From Cladocopium goreaui (Eukaryota; Sar; Dinophyceae; Suessiales; Symbiodiniaceae): 64,000 nt of DNA. The notes beneath the pieces were generated by a model that saw nothing but the letters and a program-made list of their open reading frames with translations, ran no database searches and was not told the DNA's origin. The stretch spans positions 335,979-399,978 of the forward strand of contig CAMXCT020000435.1 in assembly GCA_947184155.2 (NCBI GenBank), read 5' to 3'. Below, piece after piece: positions 44,535 to 45,858 of the stretch. Numbering within the stretch: the stretch's first letter is position 1; every line of letters begins with the position of its first letter. The position numbers and the translations under genes were made by a program.

Positions 44535-45312
44535 TTACCAGTATTACCGTACAAGGCGGTGGCGAAAGTTTCAGAGATAGGAACCCATCGGAGAAGTGAG
44601 GTGTTGTGATGCGGGGGTGGCAGAGCTGATGGACCGAAAGGTGATTGGAGTTGGAGTTGTGTTTTTTGGAGTGGTTGCAGTGGTTGCCTCAACCACAATT
44701 GCCGGATGTAGTGTGGTGTAGTGTAGTGCACTGTAATTGTAGTTGCAGTTGTGCTGGTATTGTGGTGTAGTTGTAGGTGTGGTTGACGTTGTTGTAGATC
44801 TAGTCGTGATGTGGTATTTGTAGCTGCGGTAGCTGCAGTAGTTGCTGTAGTTGCTGTAGCTGTAGTGTAGCGTAGTCAGTGGCAGTGTAGTGTGGTGAAG
44901 TGGAATGTAGTGTAGTGTAAAGGAGTTGTAGCTGTAGCTGTAGTTGTACTTGTATTGTAGCTGTAGGTGTGGTTGATTCTGTGGTACTTGTAGTTGTAAT
45001 GTTGTAGTTGTAGCTGCAGTAGTTGTTGAAGTTGTAGCTATAGAGTAGTGTAGCATGGTGTAGTATATTGGTAGTGTATATAGTGTGATGAAGTGGAGTG
45101 TAATGCAGCGCTATGAAGTTGTAACCGTAGTTGTTTTTGTAGCTGTAGTTGTAGTTGTCTTGTAGTGTAGTTGTAGCTGTATCTGTAGCTGTAGTTGATG
45201 TTGTTGAAGTTGCAATGTTGCAGCCGTTGCTGCCGTTGCAGCCGTTGCAGCCGTTGCAGCCGCAGCCGTTGCAGCTGTTGCAGCTGTTGCAGCCGTTGCA
45301 GCCGTTGCAGCT

Positions 45313-45352
<40 letters not shown>

Positions 45353-45858
45353 CAGTAGTAGTAGTAGTAGTAGTCGTGGTGGTGGTGGTGGTAGTATTGG
45401 TATTAGTATTAGTAGGTCGTGTTTTTGCCATTTTGACTTCGAGATGTGCTTCGCGCCACAACGCCGTGCACTTTTCCCACGTTCTAACCTCCAAAAGTGG
45501 TCCGAGCATGTGGTGCGTTTCACATTTTGACTTCGACATGTGCTTCGCGCCACAAGGCCGTGCACTTTTTCAACATCTCAACTTCCAAAAGTGTTCCGAA
45601 CCCGACAGTTTTTCGCAGTTTTGACTTCGAAATGTGCTTCGTGCCACAACGGCGTGCAATTTTTCATCTCTCACCTGACCAGATGGCTCCAAACCCGCCG
45701 CTTTAGCGAGCCTACTTTTCGACCCTCCGGAGCCCCAAAACATTGAAAAACACAGTGTTTCGCGACTTCTTTCTCTTTTCTTCTCTTCTCTGACTCTTCC
45801 CACCTCTGCTTTTTAACCTGTCCATGTTACAGAAGTTTGACTTCTAAACTTCCTTCGG
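44535..45858 (+). mobile_element. Composite repeat element, copy B (complete)
   Basis: The head (44535-44720) contains ACCGTACAAGGCGGTGGCG, CAGAGCTGATGGACCGAAAG and GGTTGCAGTGGTTGC. The middle is a TGTAG-type microsatellite passing into TTGCAGCCG and GTA runs (44720-45420). The tail has three ~94-bp units with TGCTTCGCGCCACAACG and AACTTCCAAAAGTG (45425-45660), then CCGCCGCTTTAGCGAGCC, a pyrimidine-rich stretch and the terminal GGAAGTTT/AAACTTCC-type palindrome ending CTTCCTTCGG. ORFs within (up to 175 codons) are repeat-derived. Flanking TTGTTATT and TTAATATT may be a decayed 8-bp target duplication. Confidence 0.8.

Follow-up and report, generated by a model that had tools for sequence, protein, structure and literature searches.

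We analysed a 64-kb stretch of DNA (hereafter the window, at its full length) and found that positions 44537-45857 are occupied by a complete repeat element with precise ends, which lie at most two bases off the coordinates 44535-45858 given in a preliminary description of the unit as one copy of a family with a conserved head, a microsatellite core and a conserved tail. In plus-strand reading the unit begins with ACCAGTATTACCGTACAAGGCGGTGG at 44537 (the head side) and its last bases are AAACTTCCTTCG at 45857 (the tail side). Its features are the following, with strands given in the Helitron sense, 5' to 3', a polarity that we discuss below.

44537..45857, minus strand: focal complete element, 5' end at 45857 and 3' end at 44537; end points agree with those of 35 other complete copies
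45852..45857, minus strand: 5' terminus, CGAAGG on the minus strand, adjoining the target TAAC
45831..45853, minus strand: 5' hairpin, with arms 45846-45853 (the 5' inverted repeat, GGAAGTTT on the minus strand) and 45831-45838
45674..45830, minus strand: conserved 5' block, containing CCGCCGCTTTAGCGAGCC (45695-45712, plus-strand reading)
45429..45673, minus strand: array of 94-bp units, 2.6 copies (TRF)
44680..45425, borders approximate, minus strand: microsatellite core (TGTAG, TTGTAG, TTGCAGCCG and GTA stretches)
44564..44571, minus strand: 3' inverted repeat, consensus GGAAGTTT in plus-strand reading, one base off in the focal copy
44546..44560, minus strand: 3' hairpin, consensus ACCGC-ACAAG-GCGGT in plus-strand reading
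44536..44537, no strand: 3' insertion junction T/A (plus-strand reading, between T and A)

The inner arm of the focal 5' hairpin is one base off the consensus, and the head of this copy, at 85% to the consensus, has diverged further than any other among the 36 compared. Two head motifs previously attributed to the family, CCTATAGGAG and GATGGCAGAG, are absent from the focal copy, which reads CCCATCGGAG and GGTGGCAGAG. Further material of the same family is found in the window at the following places.

6636..8199, plus strand (Helitron sense, 5' end at 6636; minus in the orientation of the preliminary description): second complete copy (copy A)
45912..50747, minus strand (Helitron sense): third copy with both ends, broken by other repeats at about 46245-49633
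57870..60997, left border approximate, minus strand: partial material of one or two copies, with 5' end, 94-bp units and core present, the outer 3' end missing and other repeats between

Copy A, previously placed at 6627-8209, is thus a full copy on the other strand. However, instead of the five copies (A to E) that had been thought to share head and tail, the window contains three heads and four tails, amounting to three end-to-end copies and the partial material. The head motif occurs three times at up to three mismatches (shuffle mean 0.01), CCGCCGCTTTAGCGAGCC four times (mean 0.01), the end motif four times (mean 0.03) and the motif of the 94-bp unit 15 times (mean 0.11). Arrays of 94-bp units are detected by TRF at four positions in the window and the terminal palindrome is there as well, confirming the proposed tail of 94-bp units followed by an end palindrome. 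The focal and the third copy have the same orientation and are only 54 bp apart (45858-45911); they may have inserted independently of each other or may stem from tandem rolling-circle copying. The insert in the third copy (46245-49633) consists of about 3.4 kb of other repeats, including a 166-bp tandem array and C-rich runs.

Pattern searches of the 1.17-Gb assembly containing the window returned 7,363 heads (3694 and 3669 on the two strands; 21-base pattern, at most one mismatch) and 6,529 tails (3287 and 3242; 27-base terminal palindrome, at most one mismatch), compared with 2 (2 and 0) and 0 (0 and 0) for the respective reversed-pattern controls. The preliminary description had proposed to look for many head-to-tail copies with precise ends, and had considered heads and tails occurring independently of each other as evidence against a unit. 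We compared the first 100 exact heads in contig order with the 82 listed exact tails on the same contig range, omitting 18 listed tails beyond the last head contig. An exact tail lies within 5 kb downstream on the same strand of 43 of these 100 heads (at 0.3-4.9 kb, mostly 1.2-2.3 kb), compared with a single head preceded by a same-strand tail within 5 kb and three with a tail on the other strand; heads and tails therefore occur in a fixed order and orientation rather than independently, and the 43% linkage, being based on exact matches only, is a lower bound. Four further heads among the 100 listed are followed by a tail at a distance of 8.7-13.4 kb. Three of these spans (8.7-11 kb, on contigs C42, C37 and C47) are candidates for an autonomous partner; another intervening head better accounts for the 13.4-kb pair. 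In addition, a 94-bp unit lies on the same strand in the 1.5 kb downstream of 19 of the first 30 listed heads. Complete copies are 1.1-2.1 kb long in 31 of 36 cases, and from 7,000 copies of about 1.6 kb (the median of the 36 lengths) we estimate that the family makes up about 1% of the assembly.

Copies outside the window were collected by a similarity search with the focal copy, in which 40 of 8940 candidates were scored, and thus represent a selected set; the alignment comprises 36 copies with both ends and 43 tails. Between copies the head (112 columns) and the tail (200 chosen columns, with a pyrimidine-rich stretch omitted) have a mean identity of 95%, while the flanks differ, and all 36 copies compared have sharply defined ends. 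Since the body of the unit is made of 94-bp tandem units and a microsatellite, one might regard the family as a dispersed satellite, or as a segmentally duplicated microsatellite locus with conserved flanks, and not as a transposon at all. We find this reading barely credible in view of the sharp ends amid different flanks and the fixed order and orientation of the parts, as well as the target preference and the empty sites presented below. Together with the copy number, the head-tail linkage and three gap-free empty sites, the sharp ends support the earlier guess of a mobile unit. A search for relatives in other DNA gave an exact head match in a bacterial MAG (L081), which we rejected since the surrounding bases are unlike the element; viral contigs matched a short tail pattern four times and the head not at all, which we took as chance.

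The anatomy of the ends indicates what kind of mobile unit this is. On the strand opposite to the plus-strand reading, the consensus of the 43 tails begins with CGAA, followed by GGAAGTTT, a 7-base loop and AAACTTCC, which together form a 5' hairpin, and the consensus of the 36 heads reads AAACTTCC, three bases, the hairpin ACCGC-CTTGT-GCGGT and then ACTACTGGT. Thus, the inverted pair GGAAGTTT/AAACTTCC and both hairpins are present in the consensus, and the end signatures are CGAAGGAAGTTT...AAACTTCC on the 5' side and AAACTTCC...ACCGCCTTGTGCGGTACTACTGGT on the 3' side, with CTACTGGT as the 3' end of the element. The 5' inverted repeat starts 4 bp from the element end, and the 3' one stops 27 bp before the 3' end, 3 bp ahead of the ACCGC/GCGGT hairpin. 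According to PMC3627910, the 5' asymmetric inverted repeat of Helitron2 elements lies inside the 5' hairpin, 0-2 bp from the end, and its 3' copy directly precedes the 3' hairpin, at 20-30 bp from the end; for mite HINEs, PMC4067079 gives a distance of 2-4 bp for the 5' inverted repeat. The former head is therefore most likely the 3' end of the element and the former tail its 5' end.

The insertion sites are strongly biased on one side. The 3' flank begins with A on the Helitron strand in 65 of 68 cases (one locus being counted twice, as L041 and L044), and among 53 5' flanks, 51 have a T four bases before the junction and 44 a T at the junction. The word TNRT^A fits 29 of 40 flank pairs, and the same word is found at 1152 of 128000 window positions. 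For comparison, PMC5148889 places FoHeli1/2 of Fusarium between TNAT and A in its text and between TNAT and T in one figure legend. Empty sites had been proposed as a further test of mobility, and a usable match was available in the DNA compared for five of the 40 flank pairs. Three of these insertions (L020, L029 and L055) have gap-free empty sites with a best join of 0 duplicated bases (42, 39 and 39 of 44), and so bear out the expectation; they also agree with the lack of target duplication that characterises Helitron2 copies whose 5' end is intact. For the other two, which lie in AT-rich DNA, the best fit has 2 duplicated bases (L014) or 8 (L023), and the profiles are less distinct. L029 and L055 are inserted in array DNA, and L020 in the same 41-bp satellite as that found at window positions 3455-4749 (CTTTGTAGTACAAAG...), an array which is the source of the L020 empty site.

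These flanks also bear on the possibility that the unit is a MITE or another non-autonomous cut-and-paste (DDE) element, moved by a transposase acting on terminal inverted repeats and leaving a target duplication, such as the 8 bp seen in copy A. Among 40 flank pairs, 15 indeed have direct matches of at least 7 bp in common within 25 bp of the ends, where shuffles give 3.1 on average and 9 at most and same-locus controls give 2, 8 and 4 of 40. Matches are found near both ends in copy A (TTAATGGA), L005 (ACTATATA) and L033 (ATGATTC). However, the matches have no fixed length or place. At the junction itself, there is no excess of shared bases (0 of 36 pairs, shuffled mean 0.63), and at some displaced offsets up to five of 36 pairs have at least 4 bp in common, where shuffles average 0.6-1.6. 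Moreover, the three clean empty sites are without duplication, and the outer ends, ACCAGTAGTACC on one side and CGAAGGAAGTTT on the other, do not form an inverted repeat with one another, the common inverted block being internal and asymmetric. The sharp one-sided target preference would also suit an enzyme that joins single strands better. We therefore consider a cut-and-paste element improbable, and reject an 8-bp target duplication as a general rule, although displaced matches remain. The flank matches arise partly from insertion into tandem arrays, and copy A, L005 and L033 may carry short displaced duplications of variable length, which PMC3627910 describes above all for 5'-truncated Chlamydomonas elements.

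Within the rolling-circle transposons, a derivative of a canonical Helitron (Helitron1) has to be weighed as well. Clean insertions without duplication and a hairpin near the 3' end would agree with such an origin, and a canonical-type Rep motif, VEFQKRGLPHAH, is present in the genome, in one of the five pieces described below. On the other hand, canonical elements are defined by a CTRR 3' end, an A^T target and the lack of a 5' hairpin according to PMC5148889 and PMC3627910, whereas the 3' end here is CTACTGGT, the target is TNRT^A, and a 5' hairpin with asymmetric inverted repeats is present, making this origin very improbable. We are thus largely confident in placing the unit in the Helitron2/Helentron (HLE2) branch, as a non-autonomous rolling-circle transposon with a HINE/DINE-1-type anatomy, which assigns the family, left without a class in the preliminary description, to the non-autonomous, HINE-like Helitron2/Helentron elements. 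It very probably owes its thousands of copies to rolling-circle copying and is apparently protein-less; reading frames inspected by eye in L041, in the window and at 14 head loci are mostly translations of repeats.

We searched the genome for the Helitron Rep domain (PF14214), scoring 150 of 330 candidates, and obtained 145 matches, 144 of them over the cut-off alone and one with neighbours in frame. The HUH motif was read in five short pieces of these matches: four have S after G (ETQGRGSLHPH, EPQQRGSLHIH, EAQGRGSLHPH and the divergent EAQKSTGSLHGH) and one has L (EFQKRGLPHAH), the residue at this position marking Helentrons when S and Helitrons when L according to PMC4067079. For the Rep with ETQGRGSLHPH, 24 places in the genome, its own included, are identical over 59 residues, which speaks for a recent spread of this Rep family, unless the identical places are assembly duplicates. 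We compared 239 element ends (fewer than 2% of the ends), 200 of them chosen for atypical interiors and 39 taken from the similarity search, and found no Rep match within 16 kb of any of them. The atypical ends were drawn from 101 heads (control 15) and 164 tails (control 0) with an atypical interior, and the 100 listed heads and 100 listed tails all lack a Rep match at this distance. Typical heads and tails on C10 and C12, the contigs in their range with a Rep match, were inspected by eye and have no neighbouring Rep. No Rep-encoding element with these ends was found among those compared, so that the mobilising partner is inferred. HLE2-type enzymes do exist in the genome, and would be the presumed movers of this family. 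Many of the Rep matches lie in very long open frames of 2000-4800 aa (e.g. C2805:79787, C1302:510043 and C1691:580990); the match on C2805 has the divergent motif TIEAQKSTGSLHGH and may be an unusual large Helitron protein.

The microsatellite core had been described as different in every copy, but the 36 complete copies show recurring types (TGTAG, TTGTAG/GTT and TCTA) that mostly track the head type. We distinguished head type A (22 copies) and head type B (13 copies), with one copy belonging to neither. Of the 22 type A copies, 21 contain a TCTA stretch and 18 a TGTAG stretch; TCTA is absent from all 13 type B copies, which mostly have TTGTAG and GTT stretches. Head type and tail variant are also associated (21:1 versus 4:9, Fisher p = 9e-5). 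The core is thus passed on largely with the subfamily, varying in length, and is not new in each copy. The exceptional case is copy A, in which a TGTAG core goes together with head B and with the other tail variant, and hence some exchange between subfamilies is likely to have occurred. The number of 94-bp units ranges from 2 to 9 per copy. In a short derivative, L064 (head at 1500), CTAAACTTCCTTCG follows immediately on the core; the 94-bp units are gone, as is most of the 5' block.

In the mechanism that we propose, the Rep/helicase of an autonomous relative would nick at the 5' end (the former tail), and one strand would be displaced through the 94-bp array and the microsatellite until copying stops at the 3' inverted repeat and 3' hairpin (the former head); the copy would then be joined into TNRT^A targets, as a rule without target duplication. 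The microsatellite and the 94-bp array would be cargo inherited within each subfamily, their length drifting presumably by replication slippage. It is also conceivable, though we think it rather unlikely, that the family acts as a microsatellite-making machine, in which slippage in the core during the rolling-circle copying of each transposition would give new insertions novel repeat lengths and motifs, and in which this one family would supply megabases of the simple repeats of the genome, driven by the HLE2 Rep family with 24 places identical over 59 residues.

Such elements are already known from animals, and we have here a large family of that kind in another organism, which is a eukaryote as judged from genome size and from these elements. 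HINE/DINE-1 elements, described in PMC4067079 as non-autonomous Helentrons, likewise have subterminal inverted repeats, a 3' hairpin, an internal microsatellite and tandem repeats, a high copy number, AT-rich targets and no coding gene seen, but differ in using a TT target instead of TNRT^A (29 of 40 pairs), and the 5' inverted repeat here is part of a 5' hairpin. Cg_HINE of the Pacific oyster, as presented in PMC7492417, shares the conserved ends around a variable microsatellite and satellite-like tandem units, and no partner is identified there either; its order is left (5') flank, microsatellite, tandem units, whereas here, under the polarity adopted, the tandem units come first and the microsatellite adjoins the 3' end. 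Helitron2 elements, including FoHeli1/2 (PMC3627910, PMC5148889), resemble the family in their two hairpins and asymmetric inverted repeats, the 3' one just upstream of the 3' hairpin. The text of PMC5148889 further gives a TNAT^A target for FoHeli1/2, and a start with TC is shared if the ambiguous T is counted here. In PMC5148889, ends joined to each other are also described for one subgroup of FoHeli. However, FoHeli elements encode RepHel, whereas the element here is without genes as far as seen; FoHeli1/2 end with ATTTT, in contrast to CTACTGGT here, the end sequences differ, and the word microsatellite is absent from PMC5148889. Among the papers returned by literature searches on dinoflagellates and Symbiodiniaceae, no title or opening of an abstract describes such an element.

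If our classification is true, about 7,000 dispersed simple-repeat blocks share one origin and would be poor independent markers, and the HINE-like architecture would also occur in combination with Helitron2 ends and with a target resembling the fungal TNAT^A, suggesting that the choice of target characterises a sub-branch of HLE2. Thousands of copies with known polarity would also allow testing whether rolling-circle copying expands simple repeats. As for the other contents of the window, Rfam and tRNA scans of the 64 kb gave no matches, and one plausible protein-coding frame of 337 aa is located at 28738-29751 on the minus strand, without a Pfam match and with five relatives.
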